Origin: Bacteroidota bacterium
GTDB taxonomy: Bacteria; Bacteroidota; Bacteroidia; B-17B0; Aurantibacillaceae
Assembly (NCBI GenBank): GCA_013697245.1
Contig: JACCXH010000054.1
Coordinates: 1 to 64,000, forward strand
Length of the DNA: 64,000 bases
Direction: 5' to 3'
The translations under genes were made by a program, and so were the position numbers. Positions 33,944-46,909 of this stretch are shown piece after piece. How positions within the stretch are numbered: the stretch's first letter is position 1; every line of letters starts with the position of its first letter. The notes beneath the pieces were generated by a model, which saw only the letters and a program-made list of their open reading frames with translations, was not told where the DNA came from and did not search any database.

Positions 33944-35494
33944 TTACTTCGCGTAACCGGTTGCGCGGGTTTCGCGAATTACTGTAACTTTTACCTGGCC
34001 CGGGTAAGTCATTTCTGTTTGGATGCGTTGCGAAATTTCAAATGCTAATTCCTCTGCTCTGCCATCGGTTACTTTTTCGCTTGATACAATTACACGTACT
34101 TCACGGCCTGCTTGTATGGCATATGTTTTTTCTACGCCATCATAACTTAAAGCCAATGCTTCCAGATCTTTTAAACGCTTCATGTATTGTTCTGCAATTT
34201 CACGGCGCGCACCCGGGCGGGCACCGCTTATCGCATCACACACTTGTATAATTGGTGCATACAAGGTATTCATTTCAATTTCATCGTGATGGGCCCCAAT
34301 AGCATTACACACTTCGGGTTTTTCTTTGTATTGTTCTGCCAGTTTCATACCTAATAAAGCATGAGGCAGTTCAGGTTCGTTATCGGGTACTTTACCAATA
34401 TCGTGTAATAAGCCTGCGCGCTTGGCAACCTTAGGGTTTAAGCCCATTTCAGAGGCCATAATCGCACAAAGGTTGGCAACCTCACGGCTATGTTGTAGTA
34501 AATTTTGTCCGTAAGACGAGCGGTATTTCATACGGCCCACCATACGAATTAACTCAGGGTGCAAACCATGAATACCCAAATCGATACAAGTACGTTTACC
34601 TGTTTCGATAATTTCTTCTTCCAGCATTTTTTTGGTCTTCTCAACCACCTCTTCAATACGCGCCGGGTGGATCCGTCCATCCGTTACCAATTGATGTAAT
34701 GCCAAACGGCAAATTTCTCTACGAATAGAATCAAAACAAGATAAAGTAATAGCATCGGGTGTATCATCCACAATGATCTCAACCCCCGTGGCAGCTTCTA
34801 ATGCACGAATGTTGCGGCCCTCACGGCCAATGATACGTCCTTTGGTTTCGTCACCTTCAATATGAAAAACAGAGATAGAATTTTCTATTGCTGTTTCTGT
34901 AGCCACACGTTGTATGGTTTGTAGTACAATTTTTTTAGCTTCTTTATTGGCAGTTAATTTGGCCTCATCCATAATGTCTTTTACAAAACTCATAGATTGT
35001 GTTTTTGCTTCGGCCTTAATAGATTCTACCAATTGTAATTTGGCATCATCGGCTTTTAACCCGCTAATTTTTTCGAGCAATTCTACTTGTTTGCGGTGAC
35101 CTTTTTCTACTTCCTCCAAACGGTGTTTGTAAAGATCTATTTGCTGTTGTGCCTGATTCTTTAAAGTTTCAGCCTCTTTATCTTTACGGTTAAGGTCTTC
35201 TATCTTTTTATTTAACTCGCCGTCTTTTTGTTTTATTTTATTCTCGGTCTGTAAAATATGGGCATTCTTTTCCTGGATAGATTTATCGTGCTCTGCCTTT
35301 AATTGTAAGAATTTTTCTTTGGCCTGTAAGATCTTTTCCTGTTTAGTTGCCTCGGCCTTTACTTCAGCCTCTTTTATTAAATTCTCTTTTTCTTTTTTAG
35401 CGGTGGCATTAATTTTACTGCCTGCTAATATAAACCCTGCCACTATCCCAAGTATAAGGGCCCCTGCTATAAATCCAATTGTTATTATATCCAT
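33944..35494 (-). CDS. rny: Ribonuclease Y
   Basis: A 516-residue protein of standard RNase Y length, taken from [20 protein letters not shown], a single N-terminal membrane anchor. A 16-codon TTG-initiated extension overlaps the zapA terminator and is rejected. A long coiled coil (about 30-200) is followed by a KH domain ([19 protein letters not shown]) and an HD domain ([10 protein letters not shown], then GAHHDEIE), the endonuclease site. It starts mRNA turnover at the membrane. It follows zapA on the same strand, separated by a terminator hairpin, so it probably has its own promoter or depends on read-through. Confidence 0.96.
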
Positions 35495-35924: not shown

Positions 35925-38249
35925 TTAAGCACTTAATAACGTAATGCACTTATCAATTTCACGCACCAAATCGTTTATTTGTTTTTTCATTTGGGATTTT
36001 TCACTCTTCCCACCTGAATTATTGGCTAAGATAATATTCTTTCTGTGATTATTCAAGTCTGTTACATCAATACTTTGACTATCAATATTTTGAGATAGTT
36101 CACCGATAACGTCGTTCATTTTTAAAAGCTGTGTGGCCATTTGTTCTTTTTCGTCTAAAAGCACTAAACGTTGGTCGTTCAGCACATCTATTTGCTTGAA
36201 CAGCTTATCCACAAAGGCTTCCTGCTCTTCTGTTACCGAAGTGCTTGTTGCTGCTGATAAAGCAGCGATCTCTGTTTCGTACCCTGAAATTTTTTCATTT
36301 AAGGTAGAAACTGTGGAATTGAGATCAGAGATACACGATTGTAAACCTGTTAATTGGGTTAAAAGATCCAGTTTTTCTGAGTTTAAAGTATCAAATCCCG
36401 CTTGTATAGTAGAAACCTCTGCTTTTAATTGCGCTATTTCTTCTGTTAATGCTGCATTTTGGCCTTCCAAATTGGTAACATTAAAATTCTTAATCGATAA
36501 GATCTCGTTAAACTCTACAGTTTTTGCAGAACTTAAGATCTTAATTTCTTCTAATTCTGCTTTCACCAAGGTTAACTCCGCTTCCTGCGCTTCTACTTTA
36601 TCTTGCGCGGCGTCTATCTCTACAATAAGGCTTGTATTTTCTACCAATAATTTTTGAAACTCAATTTCTTTATCTAAAATTTGTTGTTTAACAGTTTCTT
36701 CGATCTCAGCTTTAAAGCCTTCTAACTCTTGCTCTTTAGTTGAAATAACATTTACCAAAGTGGCAATTTGCTCGTTAAGGCTTTCAATTTGTTGCGAAGC
36801 ATTTTCTAATTCCTGGTTCTTTAATTCTAACGAAACTTCGGTTTGACCAAGCGTGTTAGAAGTAGTTTCAACAAGAGAAGTTAAGTTAGATAACTCTGTA
36901 TTTAAATTCTCAATTTGAGAAGTAAGTTCAGTAACCTGCTCGCTGTTTGATAAAGATGAAGTTTGTTTAAAAGCTTCGAACTCAGTTGTCAATTCCAAGA
37001 ATTTTTCAGCTTCTGATTTTAACTGGAATTGATAATTATTTAATTGTCCCGTTAAATTTTCGAATTCTGAATTTTGAGAATCTATATGTATAACTAATTC
37101 TCTTATTTTTTCATTTGACTGGTCGTTCTCTAATTGCGCTTTTGTTAATTCCTCGCTAAGCCTTGTGTTTTGACCGTTTGAGTGAATTAAAGCGTTGGCT
37201 AATTTTTCTTCGTAACCATTTGTGATCTCCTCAATTTGTGAAGTATGTGAGTTTGTTAATTCTGCAACAAATGTTTCATGCTCAGATCTTAATGTACTAA
37301 TTTGGTTTTGGAAAGAAGTGGTTAATTCTTCACTCGAAGAACCTGCGGTTGCTTTTAGATCTTCGATCTGTTTTTCGTAACCGGCAATTAATTCAGCTTC
37401 TTTAGTAGCGTATTCTGATGTTAAGCTTTCTAATTTAGAAGTAAAATCGTGTGTTAATGTATTGCGCTGTTCTTCCAGTTCTAATTTTAATCCCGAAATT
37501 TCAGTCTTATATGAGAACTCTAAACTTTCTATTTTTTGAGTGTAATTAGTTTCTAAAGTTTCGATGGCAAATTGACTCGATATCTTTAAAGCGTTGATAT
37601 CGCTTGTACTTGTTGAAGTTAATTTGGAGATCTGTGAATTGTAATCGTTCTTTAAAAAAGTAATTTGTTGCTCGTAAGAGATCTTAATATTCGAAATTTC
37701 TTCCTGGTGATTGATTGTTAAAGATTGCTCTTTATCAGACCAGTTAGCGGCAAGCTCGTTCACCCTGTTCTCAAATTCTTCTTTAATCCCCGACTCTTTG
37801 TAATAAGAATTGGTGCGAAGCTCTTCAATTTGAGTCCTGTATTCGTTCTTAACGGCTTCTAAGTTGGTATTTGCTTCGGCTTTAATACCTTCAATTTTTA
37901 ATTCGTAGTCGGCTGAAATGGTGTTGAGATCGCTTTTTAAACTTTCTATTTCAGCTAAACGTTGCTCTATCTCCTCTTGTTTGGCGTGTAATTGTTCTTT
38001 TATGGAGCCGCGTAATTCTTTAAAAGAGGCTAGTTCTCCTTTGTAATTGGTATTGTCGCGCTCCATCACAACCAATTTGGTGTTTAAAACATCAATGGTT
38101 ACTTGTAGGCGCTTGCAATCCTCATCGCGCATTATTAGCTGGTTGCGGTAGTCGCTTAACGAGCGTTTTAGCTCATTAAATTCTTTGCGCAATACTAAAT
38201 CGTTTTCTAAAACTTGTTGTAATTCGGTTTTTAAACTTTCTGCGTTCAT
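35925..38249 (-). CDS. Large coiled-coil protein upstream of zapA
   Basis: A 774-residue protein, acidic and almost entirely helical, with no signal peptide or membrane segment. The N-terminal 100 residues (LKTELQQVLENDLVLRKEF) and the C-terminal tail (MKKQINDLVREIDKCITLL) look like the two ends of the short ZapB-like coiled-coil gene that usually precedes zapA in this phylum. Between them lies a long insertion with tyrosine spaced about every 11 residues (ISYEQQITFLKNDYNSQI, NYTQKIESLEFSYKTEI), a hendecad coiled coil. It is probably a structural partner of ZapA at the divisome, greatly expanded. It is likely co-transcribed with zapA. The function is inferred from position and ends only. Confidence 0.8.
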   Translation of the reverse strand: MNAESLKTELQQVLENDLVLRKEFNELKRSLSDYRNQLIMRDEDCKRLQVTIDVLNTKLVVMERDNTNYKGELASFKELRGSIKEQLHAKQEEIEQRLAEIESLKSDLNTISADYELKIEGIKAEANTNLEAVKNEYRTQIEELRTNSYYKESGIKEEFENRVNELAANWSDKEQSLTINHQEEISNIKISYEQQITFLKNDYNSQISKLTSTSTSDINALKISSQFAIETLETNYTQKIESLEFSYKTEISGLKLELEEQRNTLTHDFTSKLESLTSEYATKEAELIAGYEKQIEDLKATAGSSSEELTTSFQNQISTLRSEHETFVAELTNSHTSQIEEITNGYEEKLANALIHSNGQNTRLSEELTKAQLENDQSNEKIRELVIHIDSQNSEFENLTGQLNNYQFQLKSEAEKFLELTTEFEAFKQTSSLSNSEQVTELTSQIENLNTELSNLTSLVETTSNTLGQTEVSLELKNQELENASQQIESLNEQIATLVNVISTKEQELEGFKAEIEETVKQQILDKEIEFQKLLVENTSLIVEIDAAQDKVEAQEAELTLVKAELEEIKILSSAKTVEFNEILSIKNFNVTNLEGQNAALTEEIAQLKAEVSTIQAGFDTLNSEKLDLLTQLTGLQSCISDLNSTVSTLNEKISGYETEIAALSAATSTSVTEEQEAFVDKLFKQIDVLNDQRLVLLDEKEQMATQLLKMNDVIGELSQNIDSQSIDVTDLNNHRKNIILANNSGGKSEKSQMKKQINDLVREIDKCITLLSA

Positions 38250-38869: not shown

Positions 38870-39736
38870 ATGAGACAACTTAAAATTACCAAGTCCATCA
38901 CAAATCGTGAAAGTGCATCCTTAGATAAATACTTACAGGAAATTGGCCGTGAAGAATTAATCACCGCTGAAGAAGAAGTAATATTAGCTAAGAAAATTAA
39001 GGACGGTGATCAAAGTGCTCTTGAGAAATTAACCCGCGCTAACTTGCGTTTCGTGGTTTCGGTGGCAAAACAATACCAAAATCAGGGTTTAAGTTTACCC
39101 GATCTTATTAACGAAGGAAACTTAGGTTTGATAAAAGCAGCTCGTCGTTTTGATGAGACCCGTGGATTTAAATTTATCTCTTACGCCGTTTGGTGGATTC
39201 GCCAAAGTATATTACAGGCTTTAGCAGAACAAAGCCGTATTGTACGTTTGCCGTTAAATCAAGTAGGTTCATTAAATAAAATTAATAAAGCATACAGCAA
39301 ATTAGAGCAGGAATTTGAGCGTGAGCCGAGTGCTGAAGAATTAGCGGATGTTTTAGATCTGCCAATTGACAAGGTTTCTGATACTATGAAAGTGTCGGGT
39401 CGCCACGTGAGTATGGATGCTCCTTTCGCTAATGGCGAAGAAAGCAGCTTATTAGATGTATTGGTAAATTTAGATTCGCCAAAAGCGGATAGCGGTTTAA
39501 TGAACGAATCGTTAAGCAAAGAAATTGATCGCGCTTTAAGCACATTAACTGAAAGAGAACGCGATGTTGTAAAATTATTTTTTGGAATTGGTTTAAACCA
39601 CGGTTTAACCTTAGAAGAAATTGGTGATAAATTTGATCTTACCCGCGAACGTGTTCGCCAGATCAAAGAAAAAGCTATTCGTCGTTTACGTCATAGCAGC
39701 CGTAGTAAATTACTACAACAATATTTAGGACAATAA
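38870..39736 (+). CDS. rpoD: Primary RNA polymerase sigma factor (RpoD/SigA type)
   Basis: A 288-residue group 1 sigma factor of the short form typical of Bacteroidota, which lacks most of region 1.1. Region 1.2: [20 protein letters not shown]. Region 2: [20 protein letters not shown], then [19 protein letters not shown] (core binding, -10 recognition and melting). Region 3: [21 protein letters not shown]. Region 4.2: [23 protein letters not shown], the -35 recognition helix-turn-helix. It directs recognition of the TTTG / TAnnTTTG promoters seen elsewhere in the window. It is monocistronic, with a terminator 22 nt downstream. Confidence 0.96.
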
Positions 39737-43480: not shown

Positions 43481-45754
43481 TTATACTTTAATACCGATGA
43501 TGCAAACATCGTCAACCTGTTCAAGTTCTCCCTTCCAGTTATTAAAAGCATTAAGCAATTCCACTTCCTGTTTAGCAAGCGGTAATTTATAAATATCAAG
43601 TAATAAATTTTCTAATTGTTTATACTTGAATTTCTTTCCTTTTTCACCGCCAAACTGATCTGCAAAACCATCAGTAAATAAGTAAAAAATACTTCCTGGT
43701 TTAAATTCCAGTACACGTGTATTAAAGTTAAAAGCATTATCGCTTTTACCTATAGGTTGCTTATCTCCTTTAATTTCTTTCACTTCATGATCATCAATAT
43801 ACCATAAAGGATTGTTTGCACCGCTCCACTGTATTTGTTTTTTATTTTTATCAATGCACATTAACGAAACATCCATACCATCTTTTACATCGCTTTGACT
43901 CTTTGCAAAAGTTTCTATCACAATTTCGCGTGTTTTATCAAGGATCATACCTGTATCATTTATACCAAATTCATTTACAGTTCTATTCAATGCGTTTGCA
44001 CAAACAATAGAAACAAGCGCGCCTGGCACTCCATGGCCGGTGGAATCTGCAGCAGCAATAAAGATCTTGTCACCCGAAATATGCATCCAGTAAAAATCAC
44101 CGGCTACAATATCTTTAGGTTGATAAAGAATAAAACTTTCAGGCAAATATTCTTTTACATAATTAATTGGCGGTAAAATAGCGGACTGTATTCGTAATGC
44201 ATAATTAATGCTATCTGTGATTTCTTTATTCTTTTCTTCCACCACTTCTTTTTGATGCATTACCTCATTTTTTTGTTTCTCTACTTCATCTTTTTGTACT
44301 TCGATGATACGACTGTAGCGTTTGTTTTTTTGTAAATTACGATAAACAATAACCGATAATACCAACGTAATTAAAAATCCAATTGCAAAGGCTATCAATT
44401 GAAAATTGCGTTGTTTTGCTTCTTCATTCTTTCTTGTCAACTCAGTTTGTTGAAGCGTTTTTTCGGTATTTAAAGTTTTTATCTCTAGTTTTCTTTTTTC
44501 GGTTTGATACTTTGTATCCATTTCGGCTATTTGTTTAGCTGACTCTGCATTTAAAGAACTGTCTTTTAAAATAGATTGTTGTTCAAGGTAAATGAATGCA
44601 TTTTTATAATCTTTCTTTGCGGCATAAACCCTATACATTTCGTCATATCCGTGCATTAAAGCATCGGCATTATTTATTTTATCGGCAACGGCCATTGCCA
44701 GATTAAGTTCTTTTAATGCAAGGTCATTTTTTCCAAGCTGCCTGTATGCTTTTCCTAATCCAAAATGTAAAGACATATAATTAGCAGGCTTCAGGGCAGA
44801 AATAAACGGCACTAGCTTATTTCCAAGATCAATAATTTTTTGGTTCTCGTTTAGTTTATCATATAAAGGAAGCTCTTGTACTTTCACAGAAATATAACCT
44901 ATCGAATCTTTAAGCGCTATAAAAATTTTTTCGGCTTTGGCGTATTCTTCAAACGCCTGTGTAATTCTTTTTGTATGCGAGTATAGCTTGGCAAGATTTC
45001 CCAATGCTTTTCCTGTTTCGGCGGGCTGCTTAAGTTGTGTTCTTAACGCTATTACTTTTAAAATATATTCTTCTGCTTTTTTGTAATTTTTTTGATTATA
45101 ATAAACACCCCCTAAACTGTTTAAACAATTTGCTTCAAATAATTTATCTTTTATCCTTATAGAAATATCGAGTGATCTTAAATAAAGTGCTGTAGCTGCG
45201 GAGTAATCGAACATTTTGCTATACAAGCCGGCTTTATCGTGATAGATGGCAGAAAGACGGGAACTATCTTTTAATTTAAACGTAATTTTTTCAGCAACAT
45301 CATAAAAGTAAAACGCCGAATCAAAATTGCCTTCATCCCTGTAAAAATTCGCAATACTTGTATTTATTTCAGACAAGCCTTTTTCATCTTTGGCTTCTTT
45401 ATAATTTTTTAATGAGTTTTTATATAATTCAATTATAATTTCGGGTTGTTCTCTTTCTTTTAAAATAAGTCCTTTAATACGAAAAGCCTTTCCTAATCCG
45501 GACTTATAATTTATTTTTTTTGCCAACACCATTGCTTTAGAGACATTCTCTAAAGCTTCATCAATAGCTTTGCGCCTGATCTCAAAAGCTAGTGCGCAAA
45601 GCGAATTTACTTTTGTAGTATCGTATTTTGTAGTACCAATTATCTGTTTTAAAGAATCGGTATTTAATTTTTTATTTTGTCCAGATAGAAATAATGAAAA
45701 AAAACACAGTATAAAAAACCAAACGTATTTTAAAACGAAATTAAATCTTTTCAT
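43481..45754 (-). CDS. TPR-containing SpoIIE-type serine phosphatase, second copy
   Basis: A 757-residue protein with the same architecture as the gene at 5123-7324: N-terminal signal anchor (to FLSG), TPR array over about 30-390 (ALNNLAKLYSHTKRITQAFEEY-type units), a transmembrane helix near 445-465, a coiled coil and a PPM/SpoIIE domain (about 530-757; DFYWMHISGDKIFIAAADS, DSTGHGVPGALVSIVC). The last 60 residues are nearly the same as in the first copy (GFADQFGG, then EQVDDVCIIGIKV). It begins 3 nt after the stop of an NtrC-like regulator, so the two are one operon and probably one pathway. Confidence 0.92.
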   Translation of the reverse strand: MKRFNFVLKYVWFFILCFFSLFLSGQNKKLNTDSLKQIIGTTKYDTTKVNSLCALAFEIRRKAIDEALENVSKAMVLAKKINYKSGLGKAFRIKGLILKEREQPEIIIELYKNSLKNYKEAKDEKGLSEINTSIANFYRDEGNFDSAFYFYDVAEKITFKLKDSSRLSAIYHDKAGLYSKMFDYSAATALYLRSLDISIRIKDKLFEANCLNSLGGVYYNQKNYKKAEEYILKVIALRTQLKQPAETGKALGNLAKLYSHTKRITQAFEEYAKAEKIFIALKDSIGYISVKVQELPLYDKLNENQKIIDLGNKLVPFISALKPANYMSLHFGLGKAYRQLGKNDLALKELNLAMAVADKINNADALMHGYDEMYRVYAAKKDYKNAFIYLEQQSILKDSSLNAESAKQIAEMDTKYQTEKRKLEIKTLNTEKTLQQTELTRKNEEAKQRNFQLIAFAIGFLITLVLSVIVYRNLQKNKRYSRIIEVQKDEVEKQKNEVMHQKEVVEEKNKEITDSINYALRIQSAILPPINYVKEYLPESFILYQPKDIVAGDFYWMHISGDKIFIAAADSTGHGVPGALVSIVCANALNRTVNEFGINDTGMILDKTREIVIETFAKSQSDVKDGMDVSLMCIDKNKKQIQWSGANNPLWYIDDHEVKEIKGDKQPIGKSDNAFNFNTRVLEFKPGSIFYLFTDGFADQFGGEKGKKFKYKQLENLLLDIYKLPLAKQEVELLNAFNNWKGELEQVDDVCIIGIKV

Positions 45755-45757
45755 ATA

Positions 45758-46909
45758 TCACCCAAATTGTTTTATATCTAGCGGTGTAATTTCTTTTCCA
45801 CCTAAAATAATTAATCGCTCAATTACATTTCTAAATTCTCGAATATTACCCGGCCAATTTCTTTCTTGCATAGCTTTTAACGCATCTTTTGAAATTGTTT
45901 TTTTAGCGATGCCCATTTCGGTACAGATCAAATCTAAAAAATAATCGGTGAGTAACGGAATGTCTTCTTTACGTTCATCTAAAGAAGGAACGTGAATTGG
46001 AATAACGCTTAAGCGATGAAAAAGATCTTGGCGAAATGTTTCTTTCTCTATTTCTTTTTCAAGATTTTTATTGGTGGCGGCAATAACTCTTACATTCACT
46101 TTAATTTCCTTATCGCCCCCTACCCTTGTAATTTTATTTTCCTGTAACGCGCGCAACACTTTTGCCTGTGCGCTTAAGCTCATATCGCCTATCTCATCTA
46201 AAAATAAAGTACCGCCCTCGGCCAATTCAAATTTACCTTTACGTTGTGCTACAGCGCTGGTAAAAGATCCTTTTTCGTGTCCGAACAATTCGCTCTCAAT
46301 TAATTCAGATGGAATGGCCGCACAATTCACTTCAATAAGCGGGCCGTTAGCGCGGTTGCTTTTTTCGTGCAACCACTTTGCCACTAATTCTTTTCCGCTA
46401 CCGTTACTGCCGGTTATTAAAACCTTTGCATCGGTTGGCGCTACTTTTTCAATAATATCTTTTATGTTTTGTATTGCTTTTGAATCACCGATCATATCCA
46501 CACTTTTAGTGATCTTCTTTTTAAGCACTTTTGTTTCTGTAACAAGATCGCTTTTTTCAAGCGCGTTCCTAACCGAGACTAATAAGCGATTAAGATCAAT
46601 GGGTTTTGCCAAATAATCGTACGCGCCATTTTTAACAGCATCAACAGCGGTCTCAATGGTGCCATGTCCACTCATCATAATGATAGAGCTGTTCACTTTT
46701 TGTTCTACCAGTTTTTGAAGTAATTCAATCCCATCCAGCTTTGGCATTTTAATATCGCTTAAAATAATATCATAATTATTTTTTAAGGCCATTTCAAGTG
46801 CCATGTGTCCATCTTCGGCCTCATCAATACTATGCTTTTCAAATTCGAGGATCTCTTTTATTGATCGGCGAATTGCTTTTTCATCATCTATCACTAATAT
46901 TTTTGCCAT
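45758..46909 (-). CDS. NtrC-family response regulator without DNA-binding domain
   Basis: A 383-residue protein: receiver domain (1-120; ILVIDDEKAIRRSI, phospho-acceptor in DIILSDIKMPKLDG, then PIDLNRLL), AAA+ domain (about 140-370; Walker A GSNGSGKE near 166, ELFGHEKGSFTSA near 205-217, Walker B LFLDEIGDM). The C-terminal Fis-type helix-turn-helix is missing: the protein ends ITPLDIKQFG just after the AAA+ lid. The sigma-54 contact loop is GSFTSA in place of GAFTGA. It may act on sigma-54 without specific DNA binding, or not at all. It precedes the SpoIIE phosphatase by 3 nt; no histidine kinase lies nearby. Confidence 0.92.
   Translation of the reverse strand: MAKILVIDDEKAIRRSIKEILEFEKHSIDEAEDGHMALEMALKNNYDIILSDIKMPKLDGIELLQKLVEQKVNSSIIMMSGHGTIETAVDAVKNGAYDYLAKPIDLNRLLVSVRNALEKSDLVTETKVLKKKITKSVDMIGDSKAIQNIKDIIEKVAPTDAKVLITGSNGSGKELVAKWLHEKSNRANGPLIEVNCAAIPSELIESELFGHEKGSFTSAVAQRKGKFELAEGGTLFLDEIGDMSLSAQAKVLRALQENKITRVGGDKEIKVNVRVIAATNKNLEKEIEKETFRQDLFHRLSVIPIHVPSLDERKEDIPLLTDYFLDLICTEMGIAKKTISKDALKAMQERNWPGNIREFRNVIERLIILGGKEITPLDIKQFG

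Follow-up and report, generated by a model that had tools for sequence, protein, structure and literature searches.

The locus examined here raises the question of why a gene placed directly 5' of zapA, where other Bacteroidia encode a coiled coil of roughly 100 residues, should specify a protein of 774 residues, and of what such a protein could do at the Z-ring. The gene lies in a 64,000-nucleotide stretch of Bacteroidota DNA (contig JACCXH010000054.1, positions 1 to 64,000 of the forward strand; hereafter the window). A first-pass annotation, made from the sequence alone, had described its product, the giant, as a hendecad coiled coil with ends like those of the short protein, and had proposed that a rod of about 100 nm, anchored to ZapA, could space or position the Z-ring or link it to the membrane. 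The gene stands where that annotation had placed it: an open reading frame (ORF) at 35925-38249 on the (-) strand opens with ATG, and zapA, whose product matches the Pfam ZapA family with 56.7 bits, begins 18 bp after its end and is followed by rny. Because the ratio of nonsynonymous to synonymous substitution rates (dN/dS) of the whole gene is low (0.07-0.11 against six near relatives), and because an intact copy of 784 amino acids (aa) is present in a relative with a single-contig genome, the giant is a real gene. Its homology to the short protein and the pairing of its gene with zapA are well supported, and we assign a probability of about 0.6 to the reading in which the giant is an elongated form of the short zapA neighbour and would act, as ZapB and ZauP do, as a layer of the Z-ring held by ZapA, here in the form of one long tether molecule.

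Homology of the giant to the short zapA neighbour

The order of uncultured Bacteroidia to which the window belongs, which we take to be AKYH767 of GTDB, was sampled with 87 genomes from one family and ten genera. A ZapA search of 60 genomes, the window's own included, returned matches in 56. Within the same genus, 36 of 37 genomes presented a zapA match, and in all 36 the giant lies directly 5' of it on the same strand, at full length in 33 (540-885 aa, trimmed to a shared start) and cut by the contig in three. The giant also lies directly 5' of zapA in 18 of 20 loci from other genera of the order, the two exceptions showing no zapA. In the comparison of gene lengths suggested by the annotation, all 53 full-length instances from the order measure 415-910 aa, none being back to the short form, whereas 18 genomes from other families give 89-108 aa (of the 20 loci taken, two without zapA in tblastn were left out).

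A profile of the 18 short proteins scored 45-59 bits against the C-terminal 100 aa of all 33 same-genus giants and 44-71 bits against those of 51 of the 53 full-length giants of the order, the other two scoring 1.4 and 1.7 bits. As controls, 167 rod pieces gave a median of 5.7 bits and a best score of 29, and shuffled C-termini gave at most 5.3. The four highest C-terminal scores belong to genera g27 and g29 (giants of 489-543 aa), whose C-termini look most similar to the form found in the class. The N-terminal 100 aa of the genus giants scored 5-11.5 bits (median 7.8), as rod pieces do, and homology of this end to the short protein was therefore rejected; a profile of the giant's N-terminal tip reached at most 7.2 bits against the 18 short proteins. 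By these profile scores, the C-terminal end of the giant is inherited from the short protein, with no sign of such inheritance for the N-terminal end, so that the likeness claimed for both ends stands for one and falls for the other.

The C-terminal motif, searched with a profile of 18 rows combining long and short proteins, was detected in 80 of the 87 order genomes; the seven negative ones are the four genomes of genus g26 and three of 56-78% completeness. The open frames holding these matches span 434-911 aa except in five genomes, in which the frame is cut by the contig (G010, G020, G032), lies at a contig start (G088) or is split between contigs (G099). This profile found no second short copy in any of the 87 genomes, a search that a short gene lacking the motif would escape, and the sole genome with two matches has both inside one 911-aa frame. 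The giant form is order-wide and, with the same slot, the same C-terminal motif and no short copy by this profile, stands in for the short zapA neighbour as had been proposed, rather than being a protein with two unrelated ends beside a separate short gene. In the class sample the motif matched 300 of 395 genomes, and outside the order the open frames among the matches listed measured 66-182 aa, with no long frame.

Architecture and conservation of the rod

Residues 111-352 of the giant present a hydrophobic power of 32.3 at a period of 11/3, where 500 shuffles gave no more than 12.7 at whatever period, and an identity at lag 11 of 0.195, where 2000 shuffles gave no more than 0.156. Across the 22 repeats, position 1 is hydrophobic in all, position 9 in 17, and position 5 is F, Y, W or H in 16. 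The hendecad pattern is beyond chance, but it spans only about one third of the protein; the sequence on either side of this arm has a period of about 3.5-3.6, and most of the giant is heptad-like. The earlier description of hendecads centred on tyrosine hence applies to this arm, in which the core aromatic is mostly Tyr but can also be Phe, His or Trp.

The 774 residues include no proline. An AlphaFold2 run on 40 sequences, with the giant as a single chain, gave a mean predicted local distance difference test (pLDDT) score of 74.6 and a predicted template modelling (pTM) score of 0.23. The model places helices at residues 3-144, 149-348, 378-431, 435-664, 679-719 and 730-740, followed by a linker and a terminal helix at 753-773. 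The five rod helices comprise 667 residues, which at 0.15 nm each would measure 100 nm if straight, a predicted length that fits the estimate first made for a fully helical protein.

Conservation is concentrated at the two ends. Among same-genus giants, identity to the window's protein is 76-96% over residues 1-75 and 69-89% over residues 676-774, and 39-78%, mostly 40-60%, over the rod between them; against the same six relatives, dN/dS is lowest at the N-terminal tip (0.013-0.022) and is 0.05-0.18 over the last 98 residues. Gaps were counted in 19 disjoint sister pairs, three of them below 50% identity, a count that replaced a non-independent one (622 gaps over all pairs above 55% identity). 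Of the 22 gaps in the hendecad arm, 13 have lengths divisible by 11 (P 6.5e-9, with 1 in 11 as the chance rate). The heptad arm shows no preference of this kind, as 4 of its 25 gaps are divisible by 7 and 2 by 11; two gaps fall in the N-terminal 110 residues and three in the C-terminus. Changes in the length of the hendecad arm thus preserve register, mostly in steps of 11.

In a tree of RNase Y (48 rows) the order stands together with support of 100/99. The genera with a hendecad arm (g1, g26, g28, g30, g31 and g33; 540-910 aa) group firmly within it (100/99), and those with shorter rods (g25, g27, g29 and g32; 415-665 aa) group weakly (88/69). A KIRE[LM] island is present in 22 of 53 giants and in none of the 18 short proteins; among the matches listed, it lies at residue 106-135 in shorter giants and at 348-502 in longer ones, and the hendecad arm therefore sits between the tip and the island.

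Within the order, the N-terminal profile is clear in g31, g26 and g25 (22-85 bits) and weak in g27 and g29 (12-14 bits); four of the five g32 N-termini scored 10.1, 7.6, 6.9 and 6.6 bits among the 25 matches listed, not above the best control (10.6). For the weakly scoring N-termini, homology is taken from a pattern LK..L..LL.ED that can be seen by eye in the sequences listed. In named genomes, two exact peptide patterns from the tip retrieved 64 loci, 62 with Bacteroidota names, one titled 'bacterium' and one from a WOR-3 metagenome-assembled genome (MAG), titles that do not give the order; tip identity was 65-100% in the first 63. With the tip as query, the PDB gave nothing at E 0.01, and the Pfam matches were confined to scattered, single-member ones. 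As judged from these comparisons, the N-terminus is a separate conserved module, new relative to the short protein. The WOR-3 MAG holds a 20-residue match to the tip (L169 4892-4951, E 4e-4), which is probably due to chance.

Coordinates of the giant gene, its parts and the two genes that follow it in the window
Feature	Position	Strand	Remarks
Giant coiled-coil gene, 774 aa	35925..38249	(-)	Lengthened homologue of the short zapA neighbour of Bacteroidia
N-terminal tip, residues 1-116	37902..38249	(-)	Holds the best-conserved stretch; outside Bacteroidota MAGs, no clear relative was found
Hendecad arm, residues 111-352	37194..37919	(-)	22 hendecads; positions 1 and 9 hydrophobic, position 5 aromatic
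Heptad-like arm, residues 378-719	36093..37118	(-)	Predicted breaks at 432-434 and 665-678; KIRELVIHIDSQN island from residue 381
Linker, residues 741-752	35994..36029	(-)	Precedes the terminal helix (AlphaFold2)
C-terminal helix, residues 753-774	35928..35993	(-)	Shared motif KxQINDLVREIDKCIxLLS; putative ZapA-docking site
zapA, 102 aa	35598..35906	(-)	Pfam PF05164, 56.7 bits against a cut-off of 23.8
rny (RNase Y)	33944..35494	(-)	Frame stays open as far as 35542; alignments with many relatives start at the ATG at 35494

Upstream of the giant, a divergent gene starting at 38870 encodes what we take to be a sigma-70-like factor; in one other family, pheT stands directly before the short gene (L080 3134-5545 (-)), and the two neighbourhoods differ. 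Elsewhere in the window, 43481-46909 (-) encodes a protein adjoining a response regulator; from their appearance, we assume the former to combine TPR repeats with a SpoIIE-type phosphatase and the latter to be of the sigma-54 type.

Probable ZapA docking and possible function of the rod

ZapA was found in 60 of 60 motif-positive class genomes tested outside the order and in 63 of 95 motif-negative ones (Fisher P 1.7e-8), a co-occurrence given little weight because relatedness, genome completeness and the adjacency of the two genes all confound it. The gene upstream of zapA was inspected in 20 of those 63 motif-negative loci, one of which lies at a contig end. In the 19 readable loci it always encodes a protein of 88-144 aa, 11-57 bp from the ZapA match, and the ends of these proteins resemble the motif by eye, only loosely so in G225, G260, G297 and G387. 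A short coiled coil before zapA therefore seems to be the rule in the Bacteroidia, and great length was met only in the order studied here. An unnamed coiled coil of 88-144 aa stands 5' of zapA in every readable ZapA locus outside the order (18 and 19 loci, among L066-L085 and L171-L189); this likely ZapA partner of the Bacteroidia deserves a name.

The two giants with C-terminal scores of 1.4 and 1.7 bits come from G065 and G066, genomes of genus g26, in which the giant (672 and 727 aa) is followed after 254 and 268 bp by rny, with no zapA-like ORF in between in either of the two complete g26 loci (L086 4198-4451, L087 4548-4815). The four g26 genomes are drafts of 78-96% completeness, all from one lineage, and none presents a Pfam ZapA match above the cut-off, the one weak match lying inside a 1064-aa frame; the profile is not exhaustive, since it passes its cut-off in 4 of 14 well-known control genomes. 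FtsZ was detected in three of the four, as was the giant, one copy being partial; G067 presented neither, and its assembly is therefore probably incomplete. At the C-terminal end of the g26 giants, the upstream island is kept (LDADRKNTIFA and LDAHRKSTIFA for LNNHRKNIILA) and the EIDKCI helix is lost. Since decay of the motif coincides with the lack of detected ZapA in this single genus, the anchoring to ZapA that the first-pass annotation had put forward is, by this comparison, a likely function of the giant's C-terminus. The retention of the rod in the same genus suggests a separate role for the rod or for its tip.

In the mechanism proposed here, the C-terminal helix, carried on its linker, would dock on ZapA and so on FtsZ, and the two coiled-coil arms, hendecad then heptad, would form a jointed rod of up to about 100 nm. 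The conserved N-terminal tip would hold a second partner, which could be the nucleoid, some other protein of the cell pole or membrane, or further rods at their tips. A second holding point is postulated because the tip is conserved, and a tether rather than a ruler because the length is variable; a tether function is plausible from the sequences, and with lengths of 415-910 aa a precise ruler is doubtful. The membrane link first envisaged would be unlikely to run through a hydrophobic segment of the giant itself, as no stretch of 19 residues exceeds 1.6 on the Kyte-Doolittle scale in any of the 53 giants. In Escherichia coli, about 47.5 nm separate FtsZ from ZapB on its inner side, and MatP is a further 30 nm or so towards the cell interior (PMC4388696, in excerpt); a rod of 100 nm held by ZapA at one end could bridge the FtsZ-to-MatP distance alone. 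A more specific version is offered tentatively, its odds falling short of even: a single molecule of about 60-135 nm, if straight, would bridge ZapA-bound FtsZ and a second fixed site such as the nucleoid, one chain doing the job of ZapB polymers and MatP together, and in one genus the rod would have left ZapA to work alone.

Several points weigh against the tether reading. The direction of the rod and the presence of a partner at its far end are deduced from conservation, and the model of the giant is a monomer run with the low pTM given above. Of the 95 class genomes without a detected motif, 63 have ZapA all the same. The g26 case comprises two complete draft loci from one lineage, and so one evolutionary event at most; a g26 ZapA too diverged for the Pfam profile may exist, and, taken as it stands, the case shows the giant in use where ZapA is not detectable.

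This last point also bears on the alternative that survives best, although we consider it unlikely: that the giant serves chiefly as a cytoskeletal rod which builds filaments in the manner of FilP, Scy or crescentin, its conserved tips joining head to tail and its contact with ZapA only positioning or nucleating the filament. Such a rod could be kept in g26, where ZapA was not found; its end-to-end assembly would need both ends to be conserved, as they are, and long rods of heptads and hendecads are known in FilP and Scy (PMC9858780, in excerpt). The giant, however, keeps the zapA slot and descends from the short ZapA neighbour; its tip drew a blank in the PDB (E 0.01), and its Pfam matches are scattered and single-member. 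DivIVA, FilP and Scy carry an N-terminal GYDxxEVD motif before the coiled coil, according to the excerpted parts of the same source; no such motif was seen by eye in the N-terminal 60 aa of 16 giants, and no Pfam or PDB match named DivIVA.

A lower probability attaches to the C-terminal motif binding a partner other than ZapA, for instance FtsZ itself or RNase Y, with the link to zapA reduced to operon inheritance. Docking of the motif on ZapA is itself deduced from sequence comparison, and rny follows in 20 of 20 loci read from other genera of the order, as this explanation would have it; yet g26 retains both rny and FtsZ, ZapA was not found there and the motif has decayed, and the motif therefore does not track rny. 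Finally, it is highly improbable that slippage of the repeats produced the length neutrally and that the function is just that of the short protein, for although the rod often changes by whole 11-residue units and ranges from 415 to 910 aa, dN/dS of the arms is 0.07-0.11 in 11 of 12 comparisons (those computable, and rough, as dS is near or above 1), the giants have a new conserved tip, 22 of 53 carry a KIRE[LM] island absent from all 18 short proteins, and none of the 53 has reverted to the short form.

Comparison with known division systems

Searches of the giant against Pfam and NCBIfam returned weak, generic coiled-coil matches only, all below curated cut-offs, and sequence searches of the PDB returned only unspecific helical chains. 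The ZapB family (PF06005) did not match the giant at E 0.001; of 12 short proteins, three matched its profile weakly, and even the best of these stayed under the cut-off, and among the matches listed no curated family was over its cut-off for the short relatives. Literature searches, with several listings limited (two of them to the best 20 of 42 and the best 20 of 627 records) and mostly without subscription papers, returned no study of a ZapA partner or a zapA-adjacent coiled coil in the Bacteroidota.

The analysis points out a candidate ZapA partner in other Bacteroidia as well, with a likely ZapA-docking helix, and one order in which this candidate partner has become a rod of sufficient predicted length for the Z-ring-to-nucleoid distance, which in E. 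coli is spanned by several proteins. A single-molecule rod that bridges this distance would be a Z-ring architecture that we have not met before. The conserved free tip offers a defined bait for the far-end partner, and genus g26 offers a natural test of which functions need ZapA.

The closest relative is the unnamed short coiled coil of the Bacteroidia, which shares with the giant the zapA slot, the coiled coil and the C-terminal helix I.ELVREIDKCI..L; the giant is 4 to 9 times longer, its N-terminal tip is new, and the long-rod clade adds a hendecad arm. Elsewhere, ZauP and ZapB connect ZapA to DNA-bound proteins, which for ZauP of Caulobacter means the DNA-binding ZapT (PMC7858052 and PMC4388696, both in excerpt). 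The proposed role of the giant resembles that of ZauP of Caulobacter crescentus, which is far smaller (26 kDa as SUMO-tagged recombinant protein). ZapB of E. coli is likewise a coiled coil and reaches FtsZ through ZapA (PMC4388696, in excerpt), but it polymerises from short units, whereas the giant is one long chain. The actinobacterial FilP and Scy, which are division-related, are also long rods with heptads extended by hendecads, and the excerpted text describes their hendecad core as Ala-rich (PMC9858780), unlike position 5 of the giant, which is mostly aromatic. Although small (24 kDa) and encoded in a single-gene operon next to murC, ZapJ of Streptococcus pneumoniae is, in the excerpted account (PMC8687745), a lineage-specific ZapA partner that is not a ZapB homologue, as the giant would be.
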